Source: a virus
Virus record (IMG/VR): IMGVR_UViG_3300030110_002484
Location: 1 to 30,761 of that record
Length of the DNA: 30,761 nt
Reading direction: 5' to 3' (one strand)
Shown in pieces: positions 1-25,323 of the stretch. Numbering within the stretch: the stretch's first letter is position 1; each line of letters starts with the position of its first letter. The position numbers and the translations under genes are program-made. Below the pieces are notes generated by a model. That model was not told the DNA's origin. It searched no databases and saw only the letters and a list, made by a program, of their open reading frames with translations.

Positions 1-3000
1 GTATGTTTAAACCATTAGCTTTTAAAAAATCAAATATAGCTTTAGCTGCTTGTGGTGGTCTAGCTGTTAGCACGAACATATTATTAGGTCCAAACTTGTT
101 TTGTAACTTTAATGCTTTATTAAACAAAGGAGCAACTTTACCTTTTACAACTCTGTTAAAATCAGAAAAGTCAAATTTATATCCTTGATCTTGCAGGTCT
201 TGATATGTATTGGCAAACTGCTCTGCGTTTAAAGTTCCAGTTTTACCATCTGGAGTCGTATACTTAACTAAAGATTTAGTTGTAGCTAGTGTATCATCAA
301 AATCTAAAACACTAATACCTTGTGATTTGTTATTAGATCTAGAAAACATTATAGCATTATTAAGCTTGTTAAATTCTTTTAATTTTGGTTTTAACAACTT
401 ATTAGCTTTAGCAAAAGACTCTACAAGTTTTGGAACTTTATTTGTTCCAACCTCTACAACTAACTCTATTCTTTTATCTGTTAAAGTTTTGTCATTATAA
501 TATCTAAGTAAAGAGGAATCATTTAATGATTGATTTTCTGCTAATACAGACTGATAACCAGCGTCTGTAATAGCTTTATCAAAATTTTTATTAATAATAG
601 CTACGTCGTAATTAGCTAAAAAATTATCTATATTTTCTACGCCGTTACGGTTTACATGAGCATCTACTAATTTTATAAGAACAGCTACTCTAGGTTGCAT
701 ATGTTCATACCTAGCGTTTGCAGCCTTAATTCCAGGTTCAATGTATTTTAAAGCAGCTGCTCTAGCTAAAACACTATTCATGTTAGATAATAAGCTATTC
801 ATCATTAACATAATATCGACGTTGTCTTGTAAGCCTTCTTCATATCTCGCCACATTATGAGCAATATATTCGTTTAACACTTTTCTAGCGTGTTTTTCGT
901 GTTTTCTTCTTTGTTTTAAAGAATCTGAATTTTTGTGGTCTTTAATAGCACTAGTGCTTGATTGAGCGGCTTTTGTAATTGGTATTTCTTTTAATCCATT
1001 TGCTTTAGCAGTTGCTTTTACATTTAAAGAACCATTTTTATTATAAACTGGTTTTATACCAACATTATTTAAATGATAATTGTAATAATCTCTTGAGTTT
1101 TTATAAAATTGACCTCTTCCATCTCCAATTTTAGCGCTAGTAAAAGAACTACCTCCTAACATAACTAAATCTGCAATAGCTTGTTCTTTATTTTTTTTAA
1201 ATTTTTTGTCAAAGAAAACAGCGTCAGATTTTCTTCTGTTTTCTTGTCTTATTAAATCGTTTTGAGCTTTTGCTGCTGTTACATTGCTACCAGTAAATTT
1301 AGCTATTTTTATAGCAGAATCTTCAGTTGATTTTATAATTGCCTCAACTATTTTTTCTTGTTTTATTACGTTTTTAGTTTTAGCTGGAATTTTTAATTTA
1401 GATACTGTTTTAATTATTTGATCAGCTATATTATCTAAAGTTTTTTCAGATATAACGTCACCATAAGTACTTCTTAAAGCGATTTTAACAGCATCTACAT
1501 CTTGAGTTAATAAAATTTCATTTTTTTGAGTATCACTCATTTTAGCTTCATTAACACCAACATATGTAGAAACAAGTTCTGGTAAATTATCGTGAAATAA
1601 AGTTTGTTCTTCTTTAGATAACAAAGAGTTTATGCCTCCAAAAACATTTTTCAACACAGGATTTTGATCTATATTTAAAACATCATTTTTACTAAACATA
1701 ATAGAAGTTTTACCGTCTGATATTCTTGTTATGTTTTCTGCCATTAATGGATCATTGTCTTTTATTAGCTGCTCTCTAACAGCTTGATTTGTCATCATTT
1801 TACCAGTTATATTAGCTAGTGCTAATACTCTAGCCGATGTATTTCTATCTGTACGGTCTGGTTTGCCGTCTATAATTCCAAATACTTTTAAAAAATCTTT
1901 TCTGCTTATATTTGGTTTTTTAACTTGAACAGTTAAACCTGCTTTTGTACCTGTTTTAGCCATTTTAGCTCTTTCGCCTTTTGTATAAAATTCATTTAAT
2001 AAACTTCTAGGCACCCCAGTGGCTGTACCACCTGCGGTAGTGCCTTCTGGTAGCATTTTTATTAATAAATCAGCGTTTTTATTAATAAACATTTGAGCAG
2101 ACTGAAGTTCTCCTTTAGTAATATTAGCGCCGCTAATAATTTTTTTAGGAGATATACCAAATAGTTCACCTGTAATTTCTGGTGATTGATCTTTTAAAGT
2201 TTTAAAATTTAGATTTTTAATATCTAACTTAGATAATTTTTCTTTAATAACTTTATCAACTTTTTCTTTAACGCCTAACTTATCTGCTAAAACTATTTTT
2301 TTAGGCTTACGAGTTGTAACTTCTGTAGTAACTTCTTCTGCTGCTACATCTACTTTTTCAGTTACATCTTGTGTAAATTCTTCACCTAATACTCTTTGCG
2401 ATGCTTCAATAGCTCTTGCTGGTAAAAACTTATTTATATAAGCAGCTAAAGGTACACCAGACTCAGGTTTATATTCCCTAATTAAATCAAATATACCACG
2501 CTTACCAGTTTCTATTTCATCTGTTAATAGTTGTCTATCAAAATTAGGCGCATCTTTACGTTTATCTACTATTTTATTAACTATAGGTTTAAACTGATTT
2601 ATTATATCCATAGCTCCAGCCTCGCCCTGTTTTTCGTATATTTCTTGAACTTTGTTAGAAGCATCTTTAGACATTTTAACAGTAGTTTCTGGAGTAGCTT
2701 TAGTTTCAACTAATCTACCTTTAGCGCCTTCTTTTGCTACTTTTAATATAGCTTTACTTATTTTTCCTTCTTTAACACTTTTACTATAATCTTTTACAAA
2801 ATTATAAACGTCTCTTCCAGTGTCAAATGTAATTTCTTTACCTAAAACATTTTGAGAAAAACGTCTAACAATATCACCAATTTTAGTAAAAAAGTTTTCT
2901 TCAAACTTTAAACTACCATCTATAATAGATTCAGACATTATAGTTATAGCTTCTTCACCAAAATTATCATCTCTTATAAATTCATTGTTTTCATTATACT

Positions 3001-6000
3001 TACCGTAAGCTGATAATCTTTTACCTAATATGCTCTTGTCTCCACCAAGCTCTGACGCATGTTCAATTAATGCGTTACCTAAATTATCTTGTGTAACTTT
3101 ATTAGCACCAATAGTTTTATTTAATACAGCGTGCATAAACTCATGAGCAGCGGTACCAGTCATTGGTTTATCTTTGTTTAAAAATATTTCAAAACTACCA
3201 TCAGTTGCTTGCGCTATAAAACCATATTCTTTATCAGCTTTACTTATAGCATCTAACTCTGATTCAAAAGCTGCTTTTTCTTTTTTATTTTTACTATTAT
3301 CAATTTCAGCTCTTAACTCTGCTTCTCTTTCTAACAAACCTTCTGATATTTCTTGACTAGTTACTTCAGTTACACCGCCTTCTAAATTACCTTCTTTTAT
3401 AGCGGTTTTAATTGTAGTTTTAATTTTTTCTGTTTGCTTTTTTTCTGTTTGTTTAATTAATGAATCAGATATTTGTTTGTCAATTTCTTTTATTTGATTA
3501 TCTATATCTACAGAAAAAGCCTTGTCTTTTCCTTGTTTTTGATTTACAAGTTCTTGTTTTTTTATTAACAAGTCTATTTGATCATCGGAAACATTTTCAG
3601 GTGAAGAGTTAATTGCATTAATTATACTTTGACCGTAGTTTTTAGCATCATTAATTTGATCAATAGTTGATTGATGTATATCTTTAGATTTTTGAGTTCT
3701 AGCTCTTTTTAATTTTCCTTCAGAAACTTTTAAATTGTCATCTAAAAGATTTATAATATCTTGACCATTAGTTTTGTACTGGTTGTATATTTCTTTTTTA
3801 GTATTTTTAATGTCATTAGCAGTACCTATTGTACCTAAACTACCAGACAACATTAAAGTAGCGGCTACAGTTTCTTTTTGCGTTCTAATATCTAAAATAT
3901 CTGGAGAATGTGCTAGTCCAACAGAGTATTTAGCTATATCTCCAAAAAGTAACTCTGTTTCTTCTTCTCCAAGCTCTTTAACTATATTAGTTGTAAATCT
4001 TTTAGTTGCTTCTCCTATTGCTTTTTTTGTTGTAGCTCCTTTTAAATTAGCTACAAAACCGTTTAACAGTGTTTTTCCAGTAGCACTACCTAAAAAATTT
4101 ATATCAGGCATTATTGCTTGAGATATACCAGTACCTAAAGAAACCAGGTGGCTAAACGCGTATGCTTTTGAATCATCAAGACCTAAAGCTTTTCCTTCAT
4201 GAAAATTATCGTTAACAGTCATTCTATAAGAGGCATCCATCATTCTTAAAGTTTGTTTACCTTTACTTGAAGTCAAAAAATTAGGAGCAATAGTGTTCCA
4301 TAGGTTTTTTGTTGGTTTAAAATCACCTTTTCTAGCAGAAAGTATAACACCAATAGTAAACGGTAACATTTCAGCGATAGTTTTACTTGTTGATCTAGCG
4401 TTTATAGTATAATTACCGTTTTCATCTAATATATCAGCGCCAGCATCTGAAACTCCAGTCCAATTATATTTAGCATAGTTCTTATACCAATCTTGAATCA
4501 TGTCATGACCATTATAATATTTGTCGTCTTCATTAAACTTATTATCCATTAAACCAGCTAACCAAACGCTTGTACCTATAGTTGCGTCAGCAGCTATATT
4601 AACGCCTTCTTGAACTAGTGTACCAATAGCATCGTAAGTTCCACCCCAAAAACCTCTTTCTTTTATATGTTTATCTTTCCATTGTTGGTACTGGTTAGTT
4701 ACTTTAAAGTTGTTTGCAAAAGTTTGGTCAATAGCATTATAGCCTAATTCAATACTAATATCTTGCAGTCTAGTTTGAGCAGAGCTTATTATATCGTTAA
4801 TATTTTTTCTTTCATCACTTAGACCATTATATTCTTTTAATAAATTATTATAAGTGTTAAGATCTTGTTGATTGTCAAACAAAATATTACCTTCATCGTC
4901 TTTTTTAGCGTTATTTTGAATTTTTTCTATACGCTGTGTTAGTTTTTCTTCTCTATCTTTAAAATCAACAACAGTAGCGCTATTAAATATTTCGTTAGCT
5001 TTTTCATATTCAGAATTTAAAACTTTACTTTTTGCATTAAGTATTACTTGTTCTTTTTCTTGAAGAGTATAGTTTTTTTCAGCAGCTCTACCCATTTCTT
5101 TAATGGAAAGATCTTCTATTATTTGTTTTTCTACTAATTTGTTTAATTCAGTTACTTCATCGCCTTCCATATTAAAAGCAGAATAATCATCACCTTCTCT
5201 TGCTATAGAAATTTCTTTTAAAGCTTTATTAATAATTTCAGTTTCATATTTAGCTGTATTAACTCTAGTTTGCTCTGGATTATTTTTTTCGTAAAACTTT
5301 ATTTGCTCGTTAACTTCTTTTTGACCACCGCCAGTAGCAACAACTCTGTCAGTAATTTCCATTATTTTATTATTATGCTTTTGCAATATATCTATATTGT
5401 TTTCATAAGATTTAAATTTTGGATCAACCCTAGATTCAGTAGTAGCAGCTTTAATGCTTTCTATTTCTTTTAATATATCAGCAGCTTCTTGAGACATAGG
5501 TTTAGCTAGTTTTAACTTAGCTTCTAGTTCTTTAATCTTCTTGTCTCCTCCAGACTGAATTAATTGTAAATCTGTAGTTATATCGCTAACTTCTTGATCG
5601 CTAAAAGGTTCTTGTACATCGTAGTTTTCTACAGCTAAATCAAGTTTTGATTTTGTTTTCGTAAACCAACCTTGTATTTTTTTTGCTAATTTTGGAAAAA
5701 AAGATTTTTCTCCTCCTGGAGGTCCAGCTATAGGATCTCCTTCTTTATATTCAACTTCTTCTTTTTCTTCTACTATATTATTAGGCACTACTTTCACTTC
5801 TGGCATTACACCAAAAGAATATGACAAATTTTCTATTAATTTATCATTTTGTTTTAATGTTTTTGATGTACCATCTGTAAAATTAAAAGTTATAGTACCA
5901 TCATTATTTTTTTTCTGACTAAATACCATTTTGTTTTGTAACTCCAAAGAAGTATCTTCCGACGTTGATTCCGTACCTGTAGATACTGTTTGAGGCTCTG

Positions 6001-6232
6001 CAGTCACGTCGGTTTTCTGAGAGCCTTCTGTCTTTCCCATTACATTAGCTGTCCAGTCTTGCTGTTCGCTTTGTGTTAGGTTGTTTTGTTTAAGATAATT
6101 GTATACATTAGTTTGTATTTCTTCGTTTTCGGCAAAGTTATTTTTCCAAGTTTCAAAGTCTGGAGCTTTAACTTCAACGTTAGGATCATTACTTAATGTA
6201 TTCCAAATATTTTGTAATATTTCTTCGTTCAT
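1..6232 (-). CDS. Giant polyvalent virion protein (HExxH protease + HAD phosphatase), C-terminus outside window
   Basis: The frame is open from ATG at 6232 to base 1: 2077 codons without a stop. Seen in order: an acidic, Ser/Thr-rich N-terminus (about 60-160); a long charged, probably coiled-coil region (about 190-500); hydrophobic or Gly-rich segments near 525-560, 613-634, 691-727 and 788-808; a zinc-protease motif HEFMH at 1030-1034, with E1093/E1094 downstream as candidate third ligand; a Gly/Thr-rich segment near 1380-1400; a helical region about 1770-1935; and a HAD-type domain from about 1973 with motif I DFDDT (D1977, D1979, T1981) and motif II VLTARP (T2056). Known: fused polyvalent proteins of this kind occur in large marine phages, and huge internal proteins such as T7 gp16 are ejected with the DNA. 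Inferred: an internal virion protein delivered into the host, with protease and phosphatase activities. Catalysis is unproven, and HAD motifs III and IV lie outside the window. Confidence 0.85.
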   Translation of the reverse strand, partial: MNEEILQNIWNTLSNDPNVEVKAPDFETWKNNFAENEEIQTNVYNYLKQNNLTQSEQQDWTANVMGKTEGSQKTDVTAEPQTVSTGTESTSEDTSLELQNKMVFSQKKNNDGTITFNFTDGTSKTLKQNDKLIENLSYSFGVMPEVKVVPNNIVEEKEEVEYKEGDPIAGPPGGEKSFFPKLAKKIQGWFTKTKSKLDLAVENYDVQEPFSDQEVSDITTDLQLIQSGGDKKIKELEAKLKLAKPMSQEAADILKEIESIKAATTESRVDPKFKSYENNIDILQKHNNKIMEITDRVVATGGGQKEVNEQIKFYEKNNPEQTRVNTAKYETEIINKALKEISIAREGDDYSAFNMEGDEVTELNKLVEKQIIEDLSIKEMGRAAEKNYTLQEKEQVILNAKSKVLNSEYEKANEIFNSATVVDFKDREEKLTQRIEKIQNNAKKDDEGNILFDNQQDLNTYNNLLKEYNGLSDERKNINDIISSAQTRLQDISIELGYNAIDQTFANNFKVTNQYQQWKDKHIKERGFWGGTYDAIGTLVQEGVNIAADATIGTSVWLAGLMDNKFNEDDKYYNGHDMIQDWYKNYAKYNWTGVSDAGADILDENGNYTINARSTSKTIAEMLPFTIGVILSARKGDFKPTKNLWNTIAPNFLTSSKGKQTLRMMDASYRMTVNDNFHEGKALGLDDSKAYAFSHLVSLGTGISQAIMPDINFLGSATGKTLLNGFVANLKGATTKKAIGEATKRFTTNIVKELGEEETELLFGDIAKYSVGLAHSPDILDIRTQKETVAATLMLSGSLGTIGTANDIKNTKKEIYNQYKTNGQDIINLLDDNLKVSEGKLKRARTQKSKDIHQSTIDQINDAKNYGQSIINAINSSPENVSDDQIDLLIKKQELVNQKQGKDKAFSVDIDNQIKEIDKQISDSLIKQTEKKQTEKIKTTIKTAIKEGNLEGGVTEVTSQEISEGLLEREAELRAEIDNSKNKKEKAAFESELDAISKADKEYGFIAQATDGSFEIFLNKDKPMTGTAAHEFMHAVLNKTIGANKVTQDNLGNALIEHASELGGDKSILGKRLSAYGKYNENNEFIRDDNFGEEAITIMSESIIDGSLKFEENFFTKIGDIVRRFSQNVLGKEITFDTGRDVYNFVKDYSKSVKEGKISKAILKVAKEGAKGRLVETKATPETTVKMSKDASNKVQEIYEKQGEAGAMDIINQFKPIVNKIVDKRKDAPNFDRQLLTDEIETGKRGIFDLIREYKPESGVPLAAYINKFLPARAIEASQRVLGEEFTQDVTEKVDVAAEEVTTEVTTRKPKKIVLADKLGVKEKVDKVIKEKLSKLDIKNLNFKTLKDQSPEITGELFGISPKKIISGANITKGELQSAQMFINKNADLLIKMLPEGTTAGGTATGVPRSLLNEFYTKGERAKMAKTGTKAGLTVQVKKPNISRKDFLKVFGIIDGKPDRTDRNTSARVLALANITGKMMTNQAVREQLIKDNDPLMAENITRISDGKTSIMFSKNDVLNIDQNPVLKNVFGGINSLLSKEEQTLFHDNLPELVSTYVGVNEAKMSDTQKNEILLTQDVDAVKIALRSTYGDVISEKTLDNIADQIIKTVSKLKIPAKTKNVIKQEKIVEAIIKSTEDSAIKIAKFTGSNVTAAKAQNDLIRQENRRKSDAVFFDKKFKKNKEQAIADLVMLGGSSFTSAKIGDGRGQFYKNSRDYYNYHLNNVGIKPVYNKNGSLNVKATAKANGLKEIPITKAAQSSTSAIKDHKNSDSLKQRRKHEKHARKVLNEYIAHNVARYEEGLQDNVDIMLMMNSLLSNMNSVLARAAALKYIEPGIKAANARYEHMQPRVAVLIKLVDAHVNRNGVENIDNFLANYDVAIINKNFDKAITDAGYQSVLAENQSLNDSSLLRYYNDKTLTDKRIELVVEVGTNKVPKLVESFAKANKLLKPKLKEFNKLNNAIMFSRSNNKSQGISVLDFDDTLATTKSLVKYTTPDGKTGTLNAEQFANTYQDLQDQGYKFDFSDFNRVVKGKVAPLFNKALKLQNKFGPNNMFVLTARPPQAAKAIFDFLKANGLNI

Positions 6233-6250: not shown

Positions 6251-7477
6251 TTATCCTAAATTGTCCGTAGTAGTAGTAGCAGTAGTTTCAGCCATTGGAT
6301 TTAAATTATTATAATGATTTTTTAAATTTTGCGTTTGCATATCTATATAATATTCTTTTAGTTGTTCTGCAAATTCAGGGCTTTTATATAACTGAAAGTT
6401 TTCCATATATTCTTTGTTTCCTTTTCCTGTTCTAGCGCCAAAACTACCATATTCTTTTTTATAATCGCTAAAACTTTTTCCTTTATTACTTGGAGATAAT
6501 GACCAAGTAGTAAACGAAGGTGATTTTTTTCTTCCTGTTGAGAACTCATACCATTCATCACTACCATATTCAATGCCTTTTTCTTGCGCAATATACATGT
6601 CTATCATAGGGTTTTTGCCTTGATAAAATTCATTAATAACAGCGTTAGGATCATTTCCTAACACGCTTTCAACATGTTCTTCCACATCTAATCTAGCTTT
6701 TGACTCTATGAATTCATTTTTTCCTCTTGCCTTATGAGTTTCTGCGTTAACACCTACTTCTTTCATTTCTTGGTTGACTAAATTACTTAAAACACCAGTG
6801 TACTGGCTACCAAAACTTAAATCACTATAAGGCACTTTTCTACTAACTATATACTTACCATCTTCATAAGCATTAACATCTTGCTTTGAATACAACAAAC
6901 CATCTTCTCCAATGCTAAGATTAAGTCCGTTTCCATCATCATCTAGTTTAAAATTACCTTGCACTATATTTTGGATATTTTGATTTTGTTCATCAGAGTT
7001 AGAGCCACCTGCTTTCCAGTTTTGACCATGATATTTACTTTGATCAGCAGATATTTGCATTATTTGTTGATCTAAACTAGTAAAAGCTGCTTTTACTGAA
7101 TTCATTTTATCAACAGCATCCTGGTATTGTTTAGAACTAACATCTACATTTTGATTAGATACAATTGCAGCCGCTTTATTATATTCGTCAGTTCTTGCGT
7201 TTAACCAAGGTTGAATTTCACCGTCAAAAACTTTTAGTGCAAACGCTCTATTTTCAGCAGTTAACCCAGGTACTGGATTATCACTCATAAAGTTATTATA
7301 ATTAGCTTCGTTTTTAGCTCTTTTATTTGCTAAAATAGTCGCAGTATCTGTTATGTTTTTCATAGCAGGTTTAATATCTACATAACCTGATGTAGTTTCT
7401 GCTGCTGCAGAAGCACCTAAAGCACGGCCTATCCTATAAAAACCGCCACCTGTTGTTGTTGTTTTTTTCTTTGCCAT
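6251..7477 (-). CDS. Probable internal virion protein, 408 aa, unknown function
   Basis: I cannot assign a family name. The start is followed by a KKK-TTTT-GGG stretch, and the protein ends in another threonine run, so both ends look flexible. The N-terminal third (about 35-160) is mainly helical and rich in Asn, Lys and Ala; the C-terminal half is polar with many aromatic residues. No signal peptide, clear membrane segment or catalytic motif is visible. It starts 2 bases after the stop of the coiled-coil 268-aa gene and ends 18 bases before the giant protein gene. This placement suggests that the three form an internal or ejected protein set. That role is inference from position and composition only. 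Confidence 0.75.
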   Translation of the reverse strand: MAKKKTTTTGGGFYRIGRALGASAAAETTSGYVDIKPAMKNITDTATILANKRAKNEANYNNFMSDNPVPGLTAENRAFALKVFDGEIQPWLNARTDEYNKAAAIVSNQNVDVSSKQYQDAVDKMNSVKAAFTSLDQQIMQISADQSKYHGQNWKAGGSNSDEQNQNIQNIVQGNFKLDDDGNGLNLSIGEDGLLYSKQDVNAYEDGKYIVSRKVPYSDLSFGSQYTGVLSNLVNQEMKEVGVNAETHKARGKNEFIESKARLDVEEHVESVLGNDPNAVINEFYQGKNPMIDMYIAQEKGIEYGSDEWYEFSTGRKKSPSFTTWSLSPSNKGKSFSDYKKEYGSFGARTGKGNKEYMENFQLYKSPEFAEQLKEYYIDMQTQNLKNHYNNLNPMAETTATTTTDNLG

Positions 7478-7479
7478 AT

Positions 7480-8286
7480 TTATCTATTTCCTTTTGGTTT
7501 GCCAAATCCACCACCCATCGCAAACATACTTAAACCACCTGTAACTCCACCTAGAATATCTGAAATACCTGATGACATTTGTTGTTGTGCTTGCAACTTA
7601 GCATCGACAGCTGATTGTAATTGACCTGCTCTTAACTCCATCATGCTTTGTGTTTTTTGATATTCTAATCCTCTAGCTGCTTCTTCTCCAGCTAATCTAG
7701 TTTTTTCTGCTTGAGCTTCGCCTGCAAGTATTTGTTGTTCTCTAGCTGCTTCCATTTGTTGTACGCTTGCCGCACCTCGTGCTGCCGCCATTTGATTAGC
7801 CGCTTCTTGTTGTCCTATAGATGCTGAAGCTTGTTGAGCTGCTAATTGACCTTGGTTGGCCATAGTTTGCGCTAAAGCAGCTATACCACTACCACCTGCA
7901 GCGCCTGATAAGTTTTGCATTATATTTGCTCTTTGCTGTGCACCTTGCTCAGCCATAAATCGAGCTTGCTGTTGGTTAACAGTTAAATCTTCATATACAT
8001 TTTCAAACTCAGTTTCCATACTAGCATAAGGATTTCTTACGTTAGCATATATATTACTAGTATCTAAATCTTGGTAATCCGCTATTTGTTCGTTTAAAAG
8101 TCCTTGTGCTTCTTTTCTTTGTTCTTCAGCTTCGTTTCTAGCTTTTCTACCGCCAAAGTAATTAAATAGTCCACCAGCTACACCTGTTACAGCGCTAGCA
8201 ATACCACCAATAGCCATGCCAGATAAACCTTTAGGAGGCTTTGCCTGTTTAAGAGGACTAAAATTTATTTTTTCACCTATAGCCAT
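7480..8286 (-). CDS. Coiled-coil internal (ejection-type) virion protein, 268 aa
   Basis: A Gly/Ala-rich hydrophobic segment at about 22-46 precedes a long Ala/Gln/Glu-rich helical region (about 47-235) that looks like coiled coil. A second Gly-rich hydrophobic tail follows (about 238-262). This hydrophobic-coil-hydrophobic pattern resembles short-tailed phage ejection proteins such as T7 gp14, which enter the host envelope with the DNA. The match is one of architecture, not of sequence identity. It lies between the 597-aa virion protein and the 408-aa and giant proteins, which fits a module of ejected proteins. The leader before the ATG is A/T-only with no Shine-Dalgarno. Confidence 0.7.
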   Translation of the reverse strand: MAIGEKINFSPLKQAKPPKGLSGMAIGGIASAVTGVAGGLFNYFGGRKARNEAEEQRKEAQGLLNEQIADYQDLDTSNIYANVRNPYASMETEFENVYEDLTVNQQQARFMAEQGAQQRANIMQNLSGAAGGSGIAALAQTMANQGQLAAQQASASIGQQEAANQMAAARGAASVQQMEAAREQQILAGEAQAEKTRLAGEEAARGLEYQKTQSMMELRAGQLQSAVDAKLQAQQQMSSGISDILGGVTGGLSMFAMGGGFGKPKGNR

Positions 8287-10129: not shown

Positions 10130-10546
10130 TTATTTACTATTTATAGTTACTTCACTTCCAACCATAAATAATTCAGCTTTTTCTGGAGAATTATTTACAA
10201 ATTTAGCTTTAGCATAATACCCTTTAACATTGCCAGCAGATTGATCCCATTTTGAAAACATTATAAAATCATTAGCGTTAGGATAATACGGGTTAAAACC
10301 CATACTAGCTATTTCCTGGTCGTCAACATCTAACAAATACTGAAAAGCATTTATATTTTGAGAAACTTGTATTCTTCTTAATATACCAACTAATTGAGGC
10401 GAGCCAGTGTCTATAGAATTAAAACCAACTGTTGCTTGAGAATCATCAGCGCCTGGTTGTGTTTCAGTACCTCTTGCATAAATAGCATCTCCAACTTGCA
10501 AAGATATATTTATTTTTTTATCTGTATTTAAAGTTAGTGTTATCAT
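10130..10546 (-). CDS. Small conserved virion protein, 138 aa, unknown function
   Basis: A compact, predicted beta-rich protein with a hydrophobic N-terminal strand, a LQVGDAIYARG turn (about 16-26) and a C-terminal NNSPEKAELFMVGSEVT segment. I recall this pattern from uncultured marine phages but cannot attach a function. It lies between the 2197-aa tail protein and the 597-aa virion protein and is separated from both by short A/T-rich gaps. The size and location would suit a tail-assembly or adaptor subunit; that is a guess from context. Confidence 0.65.
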   Translation of the reverse strand: MITLTLNTDKKINISLQVGDAIYARGTETQPGADDSQATVGFNSIDTGSPQLVGILRRIQVSQNINAFQYLLDVDDQEIASMGFNPYYPNANDFIMFSKWDQSAGNVKGYYAKAKFVNNSPEKAELFMVGSEVTINSK

Positions 10547-10557
10547 TAATATTATTT

Positions 10558-13500
10558 TTAATATTTAGAAGGTTTTATTTCTCTACCAAATAAAGTTTTT
10601 CCTTTTATTGGTTTCTTCGGCAGTGCTTTTGTTGGCGTAGGTTTTGCTAGTGTAGCCGCAGGTAAAGCTTTAGGCTCTACAATTGTTTCACTTCTTGTTT
10701 CGCCTCGTGTTTCTACAGCATCATCATCTGCTTGACCGTTATCACTTGGAGGTGGTGGTGGTCCGGCAAACACGCAAGAACCATCATCTACCGTAGCATT
10801 TGGATCGTAATTACTAGCAGAAGGATTAGTACAACCATAAACTATACCAGTTGGTATAACACAACTTCCATCATCAACGTTTACATTAGGATCATAATTA
10901 GTAGCATTAGGATTAGTACACCCAAGTATAGGTTCAAACACAGCTATACTTTGACATGTATATATGCCTTGTGGCCACACAAAATCTACTGTCAATGTCC
11001 ATCTTCCGGATCCTTCATTAACTATATCTTGATATGAAAAAGAAGCACTCATGCCCATTGATCCACCAACATCAAGAGCTCCAGTTGGAGAAGTTAACAA
11101 CCAAGTATAACTTTCATAACCGTTTATAGCAACAGGATCTGGTATTAAAAAGCCAAGACCTGATCTAATATTATAACTAAAAGTAGGTGTTGGACAAGCA
11201 GGTGAAGTGCCAGAACCTTGAGCTAAAGCTATACTGCTAGAAAAACCTAAACCTTGAAAAGTAAAATCAGCTGTATCTGCTTTTGATAAATCTAGCTCAA
11301 CATTTTTTCTAATGTTATTAAACCATTTACCTTCTTTTTCTTTAAACTCTTTAACATAGCCGTCTTCTTTATCTGTTATAATAGACTCTACAAGCCAACC
11401 TTCTTTATCAAATAAATTATAATATTTTTGATCAGTATAATCTGTTTGTGGTTGATAAGGTAAATTTTTTGTTTCAAAGGTAAACTTATCTACTTTTGCT
11501 TGAGTACCTTCGTAATTTAATGTGTTAAAGTTTTTAATAGCAGAAGGTTCGTCATTTAATACAACTTCAAAAGAAGAAGGCTCACGTGTTCCATAAAAAG
11601 TATTTCTATCTTGCTCTTCGTCATAATGCTTATATAACATACCTAAATCATCAAAAGTATAATAATCATTACCCATACTAATACCTGACTGCATTTTTGT
11701 AAAAGATTTAAAACTAACCCATCCTTTAACTTTTTCATTAAAACTTAAAACTTTAGATTCATCAACACCCTTTTTTTCTATTTGTAGTTTAATATTATAC
11801 TCATCATTTCTATCATCAAAACTACCAATAGCTTTAGTTGCTAATTTAAAATTATCTCTAAACCAATCTTTCATACCAGCATCTGATATAGGTGTTAAAC
11901 CATCTCTTGATAATCTTAACACGACGCCTCTAACTTTATCTGTAAAATAAGCTCTATAAGATTCTGATGCAAATGATTCTGGATTTGTTGATATACCATA
12001 TTCGCCCACATAAGGAACTGTTTGACCTAAAACTCTTTCGTTTGCGGTTAACTGCGCGTTTCCATCAGCGTTAAACACAGCGTCTTTATTTGCTAATATT
12101 TTTAAAACTTTATCTTCACAAATAGCTATTAAATCGGTATCTCTTGCGTGGAGCTTTTGAATACTACCGTATACAGGGTTTACATCTTTGGTTATTTTTT
12201 CAGCTTGTATAAATTGATTTAAATTATTTACACCTGTTGTAGAGTTGTATAAGCCTGAGTATATTAAACCGTATTTTCTATGCTCTTCTTTATATTCTGT
12301 TTCTAGAGTTGTAGAAACTTTTACACCGTTAGATATAAATGGTAAGTTAAAATTATCTCTAATTCTATTTGATTCAACACCATTACCAAAAGCAAAACAA
12401 TTATGCCAGTCTAAAATAAAGTTATTTGTATGATAGTTTTCAAGATCAACTTCTACTGTGTTAGTGCTATTATCAATAGAAATAACCTCAACTTCTATAA
12501 TTGATCCATCAGGTCTAAAAAATGGCGCGGCAGCACCTATAGTAGAAGTAAGAGGTTGATCAAAAATTAATTTTACACCATCATATCCAATTAATTTAGA
12601 AGCTGTAAGAGTAAAGCCAGATAAGCCGTATAATACAGTTCCTATAGGAAAAGCTTCGTGTATATTATCTTTATTAACTTTTATTGGTATTGCAGCGCTA
12701 GCCTCATAATATATATCTAAGTCTTTTGTTTCTTTAGGTTCTGTTTCAAATATTGCAGGGTTTTCTGATAATACCTCTTCTTGTTCTAGCTCATCTACAA
12801 ACTCTAATGTATAACCTACAGCTCCAATTTTACCTAATTTACAAGATGCAGCTGTCCAAGATAAATCACCACAAGAAACATTTACATTAAATTCTGAATT
12901 AGGACTCCAACCATTCATACCAACTTGAACAAATTGATAAGGCTGTCCAATTGTAGGTATTTTAGTTGTTGTTATTGTAGTGTGTGTAGTTTGTAAAACA
13001 GGTTTGTCATATCCTCCTAATAACAACTCATAATAAGTTACCACGTTAGGAGCAACTCCACTTGTGATTTTATTTATTTTTGTAATAACTAAAAATTCAT
13101 TTGCATTACTACCTAAATGACTTTGTAAATCATTAGCAGAACCTCCTGTAGTATATTTTTTTAAAGCCATGCCTTCGTGAATAGTAGCTGTTTCATCTGT
13201 TGTAGCGTCTGTACCAGATAACTCTTTTACATATATAGTTATAAATTCACTTATTGTGCTACCTTGAACTGTATTACCACCAGTTGTTCCACCAGCGCTA
13301 TTAATAGCGTTTAAAGATATATCAAGTCCACCTGGTATTTGGCCTTCTGTTGTAGGGTCCCAAGTTAACGCAGGTTCTATACCGGTTATTCTCCAACCTT
13401 TTGTAAAATTAAAACTTAAGTGTTCAGCCATAGAAAGCTTTTCATCTACAGGAACCGTGTCTTGAAAAGCAAACATTCCAGTTGTTGTTGTTGCTCCGCT

Positions 13501-16500
13501 TCCAGTACCACCAACGTGGATTTTATTTTCTTTATTTGGACTATGTCTTATTAATCTATCGTAATTTTCACTAACGCCACCAGCTATAGTATATATTGTT
13601 TGATTTGGATCTTCTTTCCACCTAAATTTAAAACCAGGATTAATGTTTCTAACAAAATTTTCTACATCAGACGTGTTGTAATTAGGATTTACATCAGCGT
13701 TTGTAGTAGCGTTCCAGTTTGCGATATTAAAAAATCCACTAGTTGAAGTAATACCATCGTCACCTGGATATCCTTGATTACCAGGATCAGAACCTCTTAT
13801 ACCTCCAAAAGCAAGTGTCATATTATAACCACTACCATATTCTTGTAAACCTGGAGCGTCTTTAGGTGGACTATGAGTGGTAATACCACCCCAATATAAA
13901 CCGTTACTAGAACTTCTATTACCAGCATAAGGACCTCCGTCTATAAACCAAACTTCTGTATCTCTAGCAGAATCATCAGATTCTAAAACATGTGTAACGT
14001 CTTCGTTAAAAGAAAGTTCAATATTACCAAGGCTTGGCAAAACAACATTACCGAAAAAATTAGCGGTATATCCAGGTGTACCACTATTTACACCTACTCG
14101 AAGTATTTTATCACCATCTCCTGACCAAGAACTCCAAGGAACATTTCCAAATTCTTCAACTGCTTTTGGATGTTTATCCCAACCTTGACCATCTTTATCA
14201 ATGTAAATTGGGTTACTACTACTTTTTTCTAAATGAAATAATCTAGAAAATGTATTAGGCCCAGCATATCTCTCAAGCATTTGATATCTTCTAAAATAAA
14301 AAGCAAAAGCATGAAATTTGTGAAAAGTATAATAACCCATCATAGCATCATTTGCATGGTTGAAACTCCAAAGACTATTACCATATCCAGACGTGTGAGG
14401 GTGGTTGTTTACTAATAAATGATTTAAATCTCTTGCGTTCTTATCATAGTGCGTATCACCAGGCTTCATAATATAAATTCTTTTACTTTGAGTTGTTCTT
14501 AATTCAAGACCATCTTTAAAGCTTTTACTTATATTATTTCTAAATGTTTCGTCAAAATATATTTTTACAAAAAATCTACCATCAAATTTAGGAGAGTTTT
14601 CAACTTCATATTTATAAACATTTACTACAGTACCGTTTTCTATTTTAGTAGGATTTGCACCTGTTGGATCATCTGTAATAAAATTAACATCATCACCCAA
14701 CTGTTCTTCTAGTTGTATACTGTACTTAGCATCATCTACAGTGCCTGATGTACCATCCCAATCATTAGTTATTGAAGATATTCTATATCTATCTGATTTT
14801 TGATCAGTTGATTGTTGTGCAAACTCAATGTATAGTTTATTACCAGGCTCTGCTGCAAACTCAGCTAAATTTTGTGCCGCAGTTGCAAAGAACGGAGAAT
14901 AATTCATTTTAAACTCATCATTACCAACAAGAGGTGATTCATTTAATCCAGTGCCAAATATATCGGTAGAAGTAGTGAAATGAGGTACTGAACCAGCTAG
15001 TCTTTTTGCTGTTTTTATAAAATCAGGCGCTTCGTTTTCAATTGCTAATACTTTATACCTAGCAGATTCTTCAACTAAATTATCACTATCTGTACCTTTT
15101 TTTAATATTAAAAATGTATCAATATCAATTTTATTTCTATCTGACGAAGGAAAAGCCAACCATATACCACCATCTTCTGCATGGTAAAATCTATCCATTG
15201 CCATGTTATAGTATTCACCAGAAGTTTCTTTAATAAAATATTTAAAGTGTGATAGTACTTGTGGGTATTCAAACTCTGTTAACTTAACTCTAATTTTATT
15301 TCCTTTATCAGCTTCTTGTTTTTCTAACTTAATAGTACCAGAAGTATTTGATAAAACAGGTGTTTCTCTTCCGTGCTCGTCTATAAACACAACACCTAGT
15401 TGGTATTCTCTTAATGATTTTATAGATTTAGTTGCACTAACTCCAGTAGGTGGACCACCACGAAGTGATACAGCAAAGTTAGGTGTAAACTTTTGCTCGT
15501 TGCTAGTTAAAAGATTGTAATTTTGAATATAATTTCCATATATTATTCTGCTACCACTAATATCTTGAGCAAGAGCTTTTCTTGGAACATTATCCCAAGG
15601 CCTTAACAATTGATTAGAAGGAACAACACTATTTATTGTTTCTTTTTCAATAACAAAATCAGCTTGATTATTTAAAATATTATTCCATAAATTACCAGTA
15701 CCAGGATTGTAATCATTAGGGCTTATGGTATCTACAACATATATGTTTGGAGAAGGCTCATCTTTAAATAGTATATCAATAGAAACTACATCTTTAGGGG
15801 TATACTGTGTTATTAAGTTTTTAAAAATAACTTTTTGTAATCTATTAGTCATACCTAGATTATAACCTTTTCTAGGATGGTAATCAAAAGAACCAGGAAT
15901 AAATGCTACTTGTGTAAAAGGAGCAAACGTAGAATACTCACTATCTTCATATTTATATCTATAAGAAAATCTAGGAAATTTAAATTCAAATAGGTTTTCA
16001 TCTTCTTCATATAAATCTATAGCGTATTTTAACTCAGTGTCTCCAGGTGGTACTACTGGCGCAAAACCGTCTATGGCTGTAACTTTAATTTTTATACCTC
16101 TAGTGTATGCTTCTTCTATAACTCCTTTTAATGTAAAATCTGTAATTGGTATTCCAGGTACATCACCATCATCACTATATTCTTTTAAAACAACTTTAGT
16201 ACCTATTTTAGGTAAATTAGTATTTGGATCTAACCAACCTGTTATAGCAGGCGCGTAACCGTCTGGAGATGCTGTGGTTGTAATATCTATCTCTTGACCA
16301 AAAGAATTTAATGCAGTAGGTAGTTGTACTTGAAATGTATTACTACCTTCTTGAGTTGTTATATTAGAAAAATTTATAAAGGGATTAGTATTAAATGCAG
16401 CACCATAAAAATCATTACCTAAAGTAGCAAAACCGTTGTTATCAACAGAATTAACATCAGAACCATCACTTATTTTTATAATAGCAGTGTATATTAAACT

Positions 16501-17151
16501 TGGGTCTCTATCAGTCTCAAGAGACATATTTAAAGGAGAAGTTGGTCCTCTTTTAATTACAGTTACATGTTCTTCTTTTATAGGCTCACCTATACCAGAA
16601 GCTGTATTAACTAATTGTGTGTGATCAAAATGAGGTGTTCCAGAAATAGAACGTGGAATATTTATTTTTTTTGGTTCTGAATTATTGTCAGTCCAAAATA
16701 TCATATCATCTATAATGTTTATACCGGTAACGGTATATTCAGGATCAAATTTTAAAACAGAAGGTATTTGATCGCCATTGCTATCAACTCTAGTTTTATC
16801 ATCTATAAAAATAATTTTAGCAATAGCATCGTTTCTTTTGTAAGATATTATAAAGTTACGGTCTTGTGTCCATAACAAATAATATAACATATCTTGTTTT
16901 TCATCAGCAATAGCACCTATAACTTTAGCATTTGTTATATTTAAAAATACAGCTTCTTGGGTATTTCTATCTAAATAACTTATTCTAATATTTGAATTAC
17001 CTAGTATGTTTTGAATAGTACCAACATCAGAATCTTCTGAAGTTGCAACTTGTACATTCATTGCATCTCTATATTGACCGTTTGGAACTAATCTTTCGTC
17101 AAGATCCTTTTCCATTTTACCACCGGTAAACTGATGTTTAATCTCTGGCAT
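10558..17151 (-). CDS. Giant tail (muzzle/nozzle-type) protein, 2197 aa, with two Cys-rich C-terminal repeats
   Basis: The N-terminus (GGKMEKDLDERLVPNGQYRD, about 10-29) is a signature I associate with large short-tailed-phage tail proteins, placed like T7 gp12 or P22 gp10 and the crAss-like muzzle protein. Most of the chain is rich in beta-type residues, Asn, Thr and aromatics, with no visible enzyme motif. Near the end two 22-residue repeats occur at 2077-2098 and 2106-2127, each GCTNP-x-A-x-NYDPN...DDGSCV with flanking cysteines. A run of five prolines and a basic, Pro/Lys-rich tail follow. It directly follows the 438-aa connector gene (3 bases apart). A structural tail role is likely. The repeats may be exposed on the virion, with possible disulfides or metal binding, but this is inferred. 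Confidence 0.8.
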   Translation of the reverse strand: MPEIKHQFTGGKMEKDLDERLVPNGQYRDAMNVQVATSEDSDVGTIQNILGNSNIRISYLDRNTQEAVFLNITNAKVIGAIADEKQDMLYYLLWTQDRNFIISYKRNDAIAKIIFIDDKTRVDSNGDQIPSVLKFDPEYTVTGINIIDDMIFWTDNNSEPKKINIPRSISGTPHFDHTQLVNTASGIGEPIKEEHVTVIKRGPTSPLNMSLETDRDPSLIYTAIIKISDGSDVNSVDNNGFATLGNDFYGAAFNTNPFINFSNITTQEGSNTFQVQLPTALNSFGQEIDITTTASPDGYAPAITGWLDPNTNLPKIGTKVVLKEYSDDGDVPGIPITDFTLKGVIEEAYTRGIKIKVTAIDGFAPVVPPGDTELKYAIDLYEEDENLFEFKFPRFSYRYKYEDSEYSTFAPFTQVAFIPGSFDYHPRKGYNLGMTNRLQKVIFKNLITQYTPKDVVSIDILFKDEPSPNIYVVDTISPNDYNPGTGNLWNNILNNQADFVIEKETINSVVPSNQLLRPWDNVPRKALAQDISGSRIIYGNYIQNYNLLTSNEQKFTPNFAVSLRGGPPTGVSATKSIKSLREYQLGVVFIDEHGRETPVLSNTSGTIKLEKQEADKGNKIRVKLTEFEYPQVLSHFKYFIKETSGEYYNMAMDRFYHAEDGGIWLAFPSSDRNKIDIDTFLILKKGTDSDNLVEESARYKVLAIENEAPDFIKTAKRLAGSVPHFTTSTDIFGTGLNESPLVGNDEFKMNYSPFFATAAQNLAEFAAEPGNKLYIEFAQQSTDQKSDRYRISSITNDWDGTSGTVDDAKYSIQLEEQLGDDVNFITDDPTGANPTKIENGTVVNVYKYEVENSPKFDGRFFVKIYFDETFRNNISKSFKDGLELRTTQSKRIYIMKPGDTHYDKNARDLNHLLVNNHPHTSGYGNSLWSFNHANDAMMGYYTFHKFHAFAFYFRRYQMLERYAGPNTFSRLFHLEKSSSNPIYIDKDGQGWDKHPKAVEEFGNVPWSSWSGDGDKILRVGVNSGTPGYTANFFGNVVLPSLGNIELSFNEDVTHVLESDDSARDTEVWFIDGGPYAGNRSSSNGLYWGGITTHSPPKDAPGLQEYGSGYNMTLAFGGIRGSDPGNQGYPGDDGITSTSGFFNIANWNATTNADVNPNYNTSDVENFVRNINPGFKFRWKEDPNQTIYTIAGGVSENYDRLIRHSPNKENKIHVGGTGSGATTTTGMFAFQDTVPVDEKLSMAEHLSFNFTKGWRITGIEPALTWDPTTEGQIPGGLDISLNAINSAGGTTGGNTVQGSTISEFITIYVKELSGTDATTDETATIHEGMALKKYTTGGSANDLQSHLGSNANEFLVITKINKITSGVAPNVVTYYELLLGGYDKPVLQTTHTTITTTKIPTIGQPYQFVQVGMNGWSPNSEFNVNVSCGDLSWTAASCKLGKIGAVGYTLEFVDELEQEEVLSENPAIFETEPKETKDLDIYYEASAAIPIKVNKDNIHEAFPIGTVLYGLSGFTLTASKLIGYDGVKLIFDQPLTSTIGAAAPFFRPDGSIIEVEVISIDNSTNTVEVDLENYHTNNFILDWHNCFAFGNGVESNRIRDNFNLPFISNGVKVSTTLETEYKEEHRKYGLIYSGLYNSTTGVNNLNQFIQAEKITKDVNPVYGSIQKLHARDTDLIAICEDKVLKILANKDAVFNADGNAQLTANERVLGQTVPYVGEYGISTNPESFASESYRAYFTDKVRGVVLRLSRDGLTPISDAGMKDWFRDNFKLATKAIGSFDDRNDEYNIKLQIEKKGVDESKVLSFNEKVKGWVSFKSFTKMQSGISMGNDYYTFDDLGMLYKHYDEEQDRNTFYGTREPSSFEVVLNDEPSAIKNFNTLNYEGTQAKVDKFTFETKNLPYQPQTDYTDQKYYNLFDKEGWLVESIITDKEDGYVKEFKEKEGKWFNNIRKNVELDLSKADTADFTFQGLGFSSSIALAQGSGTSPACPTPTFSYNIRSGLGFLIPDPVAINGYESYTWLLTSPTGALDVGGSMGMSASFSYQDIVNEGSGRWTLTVDFVWPQGIYTCQSIAVFEPILGCTNPNATNYDPNVNVDDGSCVIPTGIVYGCTNPSASNYDPNATVDDGSCVFAGPPPPPSDNGQADDDAVETRGETRSETIVEPKALPAATLAKPTPTKALPKKPIKGKTLFGREIKPSKY
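10771..10923 (-). repeat. Two GCTNP...DDGSC protein repeats at the C-terminus of the 2197-aa tail protein
   Basis: Two 66-base in-frame units at 10858-10923 and 10771-10836 each encode 22 residues starting GCTNP and ending DDGSCV. They differ at only a few positions and are separated by 7 residues. Each has two cysteines and three invariant aspartates (NYDPN, DDG), which suggests a small disulfide or cation-stabilised unit. Related repeats are, from memory, common in secreted proteins of marine Bacteroidota. Confidence 0.8.
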
Positions 17152-22905: not shown

Positions 22906-25323
22906 TTAACTAGGCTCAAATTTTCCAAGTCCAAAGTCACCACCTAATATATCATTACCTGAAGACTCAAAGTTTTTAGGTGGTTTTTTATTATTTCTTT
23001 GATCTATAAGTTGACTTTGTTGAGAAGCTTGCATTCTAGTTCTTTCATCTTTTCTATCTTCTTTCATTGTTTCTTTCATATCAATACTCTGCATGTTCAT
23101 TTGCTGTAGCTGTTGATTAATTTCAAACTCAAATTGCATTAATTTCATTTTATGCTGAACTTCTAGCTCCATTTGTTGATTTTTTATTTGAGCTTTCATT
23201 TGTTCTAATTGAGCTTGCATTTGTGTGTTAGCTTGATTTTTTTGTACCTCAGCTTGAGCAGCTACTTGTTGTGTTTGTGCGTTAGCTTGAGCCTGTGCTT
23301 GTATATTTTGTTGTTGCACCATTCTGTCGTTAGCCATTTTCTTTTTTCTTCTAATCTTTAAAACTTGATTAGCTAATTTTACGTTTCTTATTTCTCTAAC
23401 ATCTATAGCGTCTTCTAAATCTATAGTTTTTTGCTGCAATGCCATTTGTATATTGTTTTCAAGCATTAACTTTTCTTCTTCATCAGGCTGTAATTCTAAA
23501 AATATACCAAAGTCATATAAATGTAAACTAGAAAGCTCTTCAAGAGTTGCTAAATTATGACCGCCTATAGCTTGCATAAAAGCGTCTCTTGATGGAGAAT
23601 ATTCTAATATATCTGATATTCTAAGAGAAAGAGCTTCGCAAGTTTCTACAGTTAAAAATAAACCCGCCTGTAATATATGTCTTGTTGCTGTATTTGAATT
23701 TGCTGCCGCTAATTTTTGTACACCTACTAAAGCGTTTTTATCTGGTATGCTACCATCTCTAGCTTCATTAAGCCCCGTTACATCTCTTATCATTTGTAGA
23801 TAATAATTGTAATTACCTATAAGAGCCTGCATTTTATTACCACCACTACCAGATGTAATTTCTTGAATAGGTACTTTACCTGGATTCATATCACCCTCAG
23901 AAGTAAACGATCTACCAATTACAGATCCAGTTTGAAAGAACATGTTTAAAGCTTCTTGTGGATTATAGTTAGTTCCATTACCTAAGTCTATTTCAGCTAA
24001 ACCATCAGCGTCTAAATAAACACCGTCTGGTACCATACGCGCCATCACTTGTTGTATTTTTAAATGTGTTAACTGTATCATATCTGCAAAACCAGTAATA
24101 CGTTTTACTAATGAATCAATTTTATTATCATATATTCTAGGCGCAACTATATTATAATTCATTTTAACTTTAGTATAATCGCTTTTTGGTCTTAGCATGT
24201 TTTTAGCCATTTCCCATTTAAGCAATTTTTTAGTACCTAAAATTAAAGCGCCATCATATAAAACTTCTATTGATCTTAATAATCTTGAATAACCACCTTC
24301 TTTGTTTTCAGGTGGATCAAAAGTGTCGTCTTTAGGTATTATTTTATCAGCGCCAGTACCAGTTTCTTTTATTTTGTAAACCTCGTTCATGTAAGTCTTA
24401 TAGTTAAAGTATAAAACTTGTACTGTATTAACATCTTCTTTATCTACAGAATATCTTGTATTATAATTATTTCTATTATAATTTTTATTTTTCATTATAT
24501 CTTCAAGATCTTCTCCTGTTAAATGAGGAAACTGTTTTGCTAATTCATTTACAGGTATAGACTTTACTTCACCAACATAATATATATCTTCAAAATAAGG
24601 TGAGTCAGTATAAGAGTAAACTAAGTTAGCTGGATCAACATAGTCTACAACTACACCTTCAGAAGTTGTAAAACTAGTTTTAACAGCACCAATACCAAGT
24701 ACTGTTAAATCATAATAAAATCTTTTCTTTATTAAATCATACTTATTTCCTTCTAACAAAGTGTTTATAGCTTGCTCTTCTGCTATTTCTGAAGCTTGTT
24801 TATATGTAAGCTGCATATGAAGCCCTAACTCTTCTACAGAATCAGGTAATTTTTCTTCTTCATGAGCAGATAATTTTATACCAAAAGCTTGTTTAGAAAA
24901 TTCATTTAATTCTTTTGTACGCATATCTCTTAACATAGACTCCATATATGCTGTACGTTTACTAACGCCATATGGATCCTGAGAAAAAGCTTTTATATCA
25001 TACATTTTTTCTGACATACCATTTACAACTATATCTACAAACTTAGATATAATAGGCACTGGCTTCCAGTCTAAATTTAAATAGGACAAATCACCGTTTA
25101 TAGATAACTCATCCTTATACTTTTGTATTGATTGTTCGCCTCTAGCATACAACCTTAATTTATGAAAATCTTTTAAATTGCTTCTATATCTATTAGTACT
25201 TCTATCTTCATGAAACCATTCTGCTTCTATAGCTTTAGCTACTTTTAAACCATAATCGTAACTAAGCTTTTCAGCATCGCTCACGGTTTGGCTTGGAAAA
25301 TAACGTTTACTAGAATATGCCAT
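22906..25323 (-). CDS. Portal protein, 805 aa
   Basis: It sits directly downstream of the large terminase gene, with 1 base between them, and matches the length of crAss-like portals, which are larger than most. The segment LDWKPVPIISKFVDIVVNGM (84-103) is the characteristic entry helix region of portals. The middle has the expected stem, wing and clip-like mixture of helix and Lys/Asp/aromatic-rich sections. From about 663 to 770 the protein is extremely Gln/Met-rich and helical, a probable long C-terminal barrel or coiled coil reaching into the capsid. Known role: twelve copies form the DNA entry and exit channel and bind the terminase. The identification is strong; the function of the Gln-rich barrel is inferred. 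Confidence 0.85.
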   Translation of the reverse strand: MAYSSKRYFPSQTVSDAEKLSYDYGLKVAKAIEAEWFHEDRSTNRYRSNLKDFHKLRLYARGEQSIQKYKDELSINGDLSYLNLDWKPVPIISKFVDIVVNGMSEKMYDIKAFSQDPYGVSKRTAYMESMLRDMRTKELNEFSKQAFGIKLSAHEEEKLPDSVEELGLHMQLTYKQASEIAEEQAINTLLEGNKYDLIKKRFYYDLTVLGIGAVKTSFTTSEGVVVDYVDPANLVYSYTDSPYFEDIYYVGEVKSIPVNELAKQFPHLTGEDLEDIMKNKNYNRNNYNTRYSVDKEDVNTVQVLYFNYKTYMNEVYKIKETGTGADKIIPKDDTFDPPENKEGGYSRLLRSIEVLYDGALILGTKKLLKWEMAKNMLRPKSDYTKVKMNYNIVAPRIYDNKIDSLVKRITGFADMIQLTHLKIQQVMARMVPDGVYLDADGLAEIDLGNGTNYNPQEALNMFFQTGSVIGRSFTSEGDMNPGKVPIQEITSGSGGNKMQALIGNYNYYLQMIRDVTGLNEARDGSIPDKNALVGVQKLAAANSNTATRHILQAGLFLTVETCEALSLRISDILEYSPSRDAFMQAIGGHNLATLEELSSLHLYDFGIFLELQPDEEEKLMLENNIQMALQQKTIDLEDAIDVREIRNVKLANQVLKIRRKKKMANDRMVQQQNIQAQAQANAQTQQVAAQAEVQKNQANTQMQAQLEQMKAQIKNQQMELEVQHKMKLMQFEFEINQQLQQMNMQSIDMKETMKEDRKDERTRMQASQQSQLIDQRNNKKPPKNFESSGNDILGGDFGLGKFEPS

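Follow-up and report, generated by a model that had tools for sequence, protein, structure and literature searches.

Giant multi-domain chains of phages with portal-terminase genes, thought to be packaged and injected and to carry swappable domains, are known as polyvalent proteins; the domain met most often in them is a zincin, which has been suggested to process the chain (Iyer et al. 2017, PMC5512222). A similar build is seen in the virion RNA polymerase gp50 of phage N4, an ejected protein of ~3,500 residues that combines an N-terminal delivery part, an HExxH zincin and a large helical C-terminus and that stays in the ejectosome, and for T7 gp16 recruitment of host RNA polymerase at the inner membrane has been reported (PMC12633501). 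In phicrAss001, which has the same gene order as the locus described here, the corresponding gene block is cargo proposed to exit the virion partly unfolded (PMC10172136). We analysed the virus record IMGVR_UViG_3300030110_002484 over 30,761 bases, read to the record end at base 1 (the whole stretch is called the window below), in which the last gene of the virion operon encodes a giant protein. We consider it likely that this protein is ejected and belongs to the polyvalent cargo proteins, with a zincin and a HAD domain.

As in polyvalent proteins, disparate domains (zincin, a helical core and HAD) are joined in one chain, and the gene is encoded together with portal-terminase virion genes. 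An earlier sequence-only reading of this DNA had held a delivered dual-enzyme protein not to be a standard phage description; that claim is not supported, since just such proteins have been described in the polyvalent class (PMC5512222) and in the N4 virion RNA polymerase, which bears an HExxH domain (PMC12633501). What would set the giant apart from the described class, itself already known, is the presence of a HAD phosphatase and possibly of a sigma-like domain. The main text of the polyvalent survey (PMC5512222) does not name HAD phosphatase, polynucleotide kinase or sigma factor, and a literature search on these terms in combination returned that survey alone. None of the polyvalent LPD families passes the Pfam threshold in the window family, in which a weak LPD14 match occurs in one member (L014). 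In place of the RNA polymerase of N4 gp50, the window protein carries a HAD and a sigma-like domain, and the likeness drawn between the two is one of architecture.

A truncated giant gene with relatives in marine virus contigs

2..6232, minus strand: giant open reading frame (ORF), 2,077 codons, not closed before the contig ends; full length probably about 2,800-3,000 amino acids (aa)

The sequence-only reading was right that at least 2,077 residues remain open at the edge, as a single minus-strand ORF runs off the window end. It had overlooked the truncation: comparison with complete relatives indicates that the giant is without about 850 C-terminal residues. Complete relatives from IMG/VR measure 2,032-3,378 aa (median 2,721), and after HAD motif I they extend for another ~840-990 residues, which complete the HAD domain and supply a conserved C-terminus made up wholly of helices. 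Because the window holds only 105 HAD residues and relatives continue beyond that point, the full protein probably has 2,800-3,000 aa. The C-terminal ~750 residues of the relatives are wholly helical and highly conserved.

The layout of zincin, core, HAD and C-terminal domain recurs in at least 129 distinct marine virus giants, with HAD motif I present in 118 of them and HExxH in 75 of the 80 that have the core profile. Another 48 combine the zincin profile with a homologous divergent core, and scanning marine virus contigs with the HAD domain alone gave at least 482 related stretches. These giants are thus common in marine virus contigs and yet lack a Pfam or PHROG name. A tblastn search of named phages with the conserved part of the giant gave no match. 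The C-terminal pattern was not found in a search of bacterial genomes, so that nothing points to a copy in a host or prophage.

Conserved zincin and HAD domains

2738..3220, minus strand: zincin-like metallopeptidase domain, aa 1005-1165, with HExxH and third-ligand Glu; beta strands and active-site helix, predicted local distance difference test (pLDDT) mostly 75-94
3131..3145, minus strand: HEFMH zinc-binding motif, aa 1030-1034
2951..2953, minus strand: Glu1094, predicted third zinc ligand, in the GEEAITIMSE helix
2..316, minus strand: HAD phosphatase domain, aa 1973-2077, first 105 of ~170 residues, with motifs I and II in the window
287..307, minus strand: HAD motif I, LDFDDTL, aa 1976-1982; DFD[DE]T in all aligned relatives

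The zinc protease proposed from the HEFMH motif is supported by an alignment of 55 relatives (A4), in which both His (H1030 and H1034) are invariant, the catalytic Glu is at least 90% conserved and Glu1094 is invariant (column 575). This ligand pattern, an HExxH helix with a Glu in a second helix, fits that described for the peptidases of polyvalent proteins (PMC5512222).

The proposed HAD phosphatase was likewise supported, by motifs I and II in the window, by the remaining motifs in relatives and by the predicted alpha/beta fold. The window still takes in motif II (LTAR) but ends before the invariant Lys and the acidic FADD motif, which are seen in relatives; these have all four motifs, invariant or nearly so. 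In the AlphaFold model of a homologue (L003) the HAD block forms an alternating, Rossmann-like alpha/beta domain (pLDDT mostly 74-89). Its clearest Foldseek neighbour is the Legionella HAD phosphatase Ceg4 (6aok; probability 0.91, but E 0.39). Pfam DUF2608 is weakly matched by the HAD domains of 18 of 19 members, and searching the PDB by sequence with the core and HAD profiles gave chance matches only.

Four relatives carry a P-loop kinase domain (Pfam Zeta_toxin/AAA_33, E 2e-7 to 2e-12) inserted after HAD motif I, at the cap position:

L018:10593-11375: P-loop kinase insert, zeta-toxin/AAA_33 type
L021:10368-11057: the same
L055:10158-10895: the same
L069:9987-10709: the same

Such a kinase in the HAD cap points to nucleic-acid end repair and is possibly a new kinase-phosphatase arrangement for that task. 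Extra domains are also inserted between the HAD domain and the helical C-terminus (L055:11298-12680, L077:10446-11693 and L071:10998-11450), one of which matches Pfam DUF6934 (2.8e-8) and another DUF2963. These variable inserts suggest that the payload is modular. With a HAD/kinase payload, the idea that an injected protein repairs nucleic acid early in infection becomes testable.

Immune evasion had been put forward as a role for the giant, which would make it an effector directed against restriction or CRISPR that arrives along with the DNA. Anti-defence factors do occur in the class of polyvalent proteins (PMC5512222). However, Pfam and PHROG scans revealed no known anti-defence domain (the PADLOC library was not scanned), and those domains that are conserved suggest roles in processing and in the metabolism of nucleic acids; we found no specific evidence for the proposal and judge it very improbable.

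Virion operon and packaging

The giant closes a virion operon in the order terminase, portal, structural genes, muzzle, small genes and giant, which is also that of phi38:1, elemoA and MW202828. A giant gene also fills this slot in isolated phages of Cellulophaga, Flavobacterium and Tenacibaculum; such giants are known from Pervagoviridae, Pachyviridae and elemoviruses (phi38:1 gp101, phi18:3 gp123 and elemoA gp21), and most relatives of the window protein have a mid module homologous to theirs. Of these, phi18:3 gp123 is annotated as a structural protein on experimental tandem mass spectrometry (MS/MS) evidence; it carries the mid module of most relatives, not that of the window. Annotations of this kind reportedly stem from Holmfeldt et al. 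2013. In phi14:2, genes after the muzzle were detected by MS/MS, among them the catalytic RNA polymerase. The giant resembles this crAss-like virion RNA polymerase block (phi14:2 gp065-gp067; phicrAss001 gp47, gp49 and gp50) in its position after muzzle and ejection-type genes and in its size, the crAss block being packaged according to MS/MS, and phi14:2 gp065 likewise has an HExxH motif. Judged from this synteny and these homologues, the giant is very likely packaged in the virion. The proposal of a virion protein that brings enzymes into the host thus agrees with the operon position, with giant virion proteins in the same slot of isolated phages and with the packaged RNA polymerase of phi14:2.

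The giant as a crAss-type virion RNA polymerase was considered and rejected, since phi14:2 gp065-gp067 gave no profile match to the window domains and the polymerase family PF00623 is absent in 20 relative contigs. HExxH motifs occur in the RNA polymerase-associated virion protein gp065 of phi14:2 (L291:40997-45262) and, twice, in its tail protein gp070 (L292:10360-12141); zincin-like domains may be common in crAss cargo.

The N-terminal half of the giant comprises two regions:

4676..6232, minus strand: variable N-terminal region, aa 1-519, charged, helical/coil-like, of low conservation; only aa 3-76 match a relative (L010)
3233..4675, minus strand: exchangeable mid module, aa 520-1000; its version of aa ~535-840 is common only to the window and L069

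Most relatives carry another version of the mid module, homologous by profile to elemoA gp21 (E 1.7e-30) and phi38:1 gp101 (8e-24); the same profile matches phi18:3 gp123 (E 9e-22), Gundel_1 gp074 and phi46:3 gp120. A general homology of the window mid module to phi18:3-type giants was rejected, as it fails for the window's own version. In contrast to the window protein, phi38:1 gp101, phi18:3 gp123 and elemoA gp21 gave no sign of the core, HAD or C-terminal domains in tblastn and profile searches, the sole exception among those giants being a weak C-terminal match in Gundel_1 gp074. For elemoA gp21 the zincin profile gives a match as well (E 2e-7). Beside its zincin block it carries DUF3293 (E 1e-12; L032:30564-41645), and its domains indicate that isolated phages bear other payloads in the same frame. 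The Gly-rich hydrophobic segments described earlier are not supported as membrane segments: Gly makes up 9% of aa 520-860, a region whose predicted structure is of very low confidence, but no 19-residue stretch of the window protein reaches a mean hydropathy of 1.3, and no transmembrane segments were found in it.

Some of the results speak against a packaged polyvalent protein. No family matches the giant, as Pfam and PHROG scans gave nothing above cut-off. The best match of the window mid module to MS/MS-detected giants has an independent E-value of only 9e-5, in low-complexity sequence, so that packaging rests on synteny and relatives. HExxH is gone in a small group (L023, L026, L027 and L028), and the protease is thus not always essential. 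This loss would also suit a protein that is chiefly an internal virion or ejectosome structural component like T7 gp16, its enzyme-like domains being maturation factors or relics with no effector role in the host, as would the annotation of the syntenic giants as structural proteins only and the highly conserved, all-helical C-terminal ~750 residues. The invariance of the HAD catalytic residues across very divergent members, that of both zinc-ligand His in the 55 aligned relatives and the gain of accessory P-loop kinase domains argue the other way, and we regard a chiefly structural role as rather unlikely.

Possible sigma-70 resemblance of the core domain

1703..2677, minus strand: helical core domain, aa 1186-1510; with the HAD domain, the best conserved part of the chain
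2381..2605, minus strand: sigma-70 region 2-like segment, aa 1210-1284, from hhalign and Foldseek

The conserved helical blocks noted in the sequence-only reading correspond to the core, which shows 60-72% identity in close relatives and pLDDT mostly of 80-97. Fast-diverging versions of the core in giants without the first profile are homologous to it (hhalign probability 98.6, E 1e-15). By eye, aa 1210-1284 track sigma-70 region 2 nearly free of gaps. We aligned genuine sigma factors, drawn from five bacterial genomes and 80 RpoD loci, and compared the block with them by hhalign, which gave a score of 28.5 (P 5e-4; the sigma P-values are optimistic because the hypothesis arose from the same sequence on which it was then tested). 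Controls stayed lower: 11.9 for the sigma profile in reverse, no more than 17.2 for 300 profiles with shuffled columns, and 11-22 for other blocks of these giants. A subfamily not used to form the idea (L215, L216, L225 and L253) aligned to sigma in the same register (P 0.007), in which ..NYDPKKG-AFSTHVYNNI.. is set against ..KFDxxRGxxFSTYAxWWI... Foldseek with the window model placed several sigma factors among 58 PDB matches (E 0.14-4) and found a cyanophage sigma factor in a viral library (probability 0.99, E 0.046). Vinculin and transporters, the top fold matches of whole models, were rejected as helical noise, as long helices dilute the search.

The resemblance has its own counter-evidence: hmmscan against Pfam gave no sigma match for the core, the HH probability of the sigma match does not exceed 31%, and no significant match to sigma is obtained for the entire divergent core family (P 0.16). 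The fold matches are weak (E 0.05-4), and Foldseek gives no aligned residues. The promoter-melting aromatics of region 2.3 are not kept, TYATWW being replaced by AAYINK in the alignment, and no sigma region 4 was found in the second half of the core. On balance we lean slightly towards a sigma2-like ancestry of the core, while binding or docking of RNA polymerase by it is a possibility that we hold with considerable doubt.

A rival interpretation would make the core a sigma-like factor that arrives with the virion, recruits the host's RNA polymerase and so does the job of the packaged RNA polymerase of crAss-like phages. It could draw on the controlled profile match and the independent subfamily in the same register, on the sigma factors among the fold matches and on the slot, which is that of the phi14:2 virion RNA polymerase. 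RNA_pol_Rpb1_2 (PF00623) was moreover not found in the 20 long relative contigs but was detected in 14 of 14 control genomes; however, PF00623 may miss crAss-type polymerases, and a search for single-subunit polymerases was uninformative, its control being silent. Given also the weak fold matches, the lack of a Pfam sigma match, the unconserved melting aromatics and the lack of a region 4 match, this interpretation can be entertained only tentatively. We know of no case of a sigma mimic delivered in a virion. If the sigma-like domain does bind host RNA polymerase, it would explain how transcription starts in crass-related phages that lack a packaged polymerase.

Proposed mode of action

We propose that the ORF covers the initial ~2,080 of the ~2,900 residues of a polyvalent ejection (cargo) protein that is packaged in the virion and would exit partly unfolded via portal, tail and muzzle, either together with the DNA or just before it. 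Its N-terminal half would be an exchangeable delivery part belonging to the ejection complex, and the long helical C-terminus probably anchors the giant in the capsid or the ejection complex. After entry, the zincin would most likely cleave the chain and free the other domains; the sigma2-like core would most likely dock host RNA polymerase at the entering DNA, and the HAD domain, with the P-loop kinase in some relatives, may act on nucleic-acid ends or nucleotides. Each step has precedent in T7 gp16 and N4 gp50 (PMC12633501). Of this picture, the domain architecture, the conservation, the synteny and the homology to virion proteins were observed, and all that concerns activity is inferred. 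In its fullest form the proposal states that the packaged RNA polymerase of the crAss-like cousins was replaced by a packaged, proteolytically released sigma-like domain that seizes host RNA polymerase at DNA entry, in one chain with an end-repair phosphatase/kinase; this complete scenario we consider less probable still than either of the polymerase-recruiting roles of the core discussed above.

Neighbouring genes and relationships of the phage

25325..27538, minus strand: terminase large subunit (phrog_6681 4e-173; 63% identity to MW202828)
22906..25323, minus strand: portal protein (phrog_6547 8e-149)
10558..17151, minus strand: crassvirus-type muzzle protein, 2,197 aa (Pfam crAss_MUZ 5e-15 and crAss_MUZ_C 1e-10; phrog_14478 2e-135)
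10130..10546, minus strand: 138-aa virion protein, homologous to the MS/MS-detected virion protein phi18:3 gp115 (E 9e-14)
7480..8286, minus strand: 268-aa virion protein, probable ejection/cargo protein, homologous to phi38:1 gp099 and phi18:3 gp120 (E 2e-7 and 6e-6)
6251..7477, minus strand: 408-aa orphan ORF, flanked by the giant and the 268-aa gene; by position equivalent to an ejection protein, placed as the MS/MS-detected virion protein phi18:3 gp121

The giant had been said to follow two ejection-type proteins, which holds for one of them. The 268-aa protein has known virion relatives, phi18:3 gp120 having been detected by MS/MS, and its gene occurs together with the giant in 86 relative loci. 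No relative of the 408-aa ORF was found in the 86 loci that retain the adjoining 268-aa gene, which suggests a fast-evolving or replaced ejection gene.

By terminase, the nearest records are the spring podovirus MW202828 (63%) and flavobacterial podoviruses, among them Elemovirus, Cellulophaga phages, Flavobacterium phages and Tenacibaculum phage Gundel. Both Pfam crAss muzzle domains lie above cut-off in the window muzzle, a tail feature of the Crassvirales type, and the phage is probably a crass-related podovirus with a host probably among the Bacteroidota. The window muzzle is longer than those of relatives (1,324 aa in phi38:1). Its C-terminal end carries two GCTNPxAxNYDPxAxVDDGSC repeats, with 60% identity in this part to the marine virus AG-345-P14.

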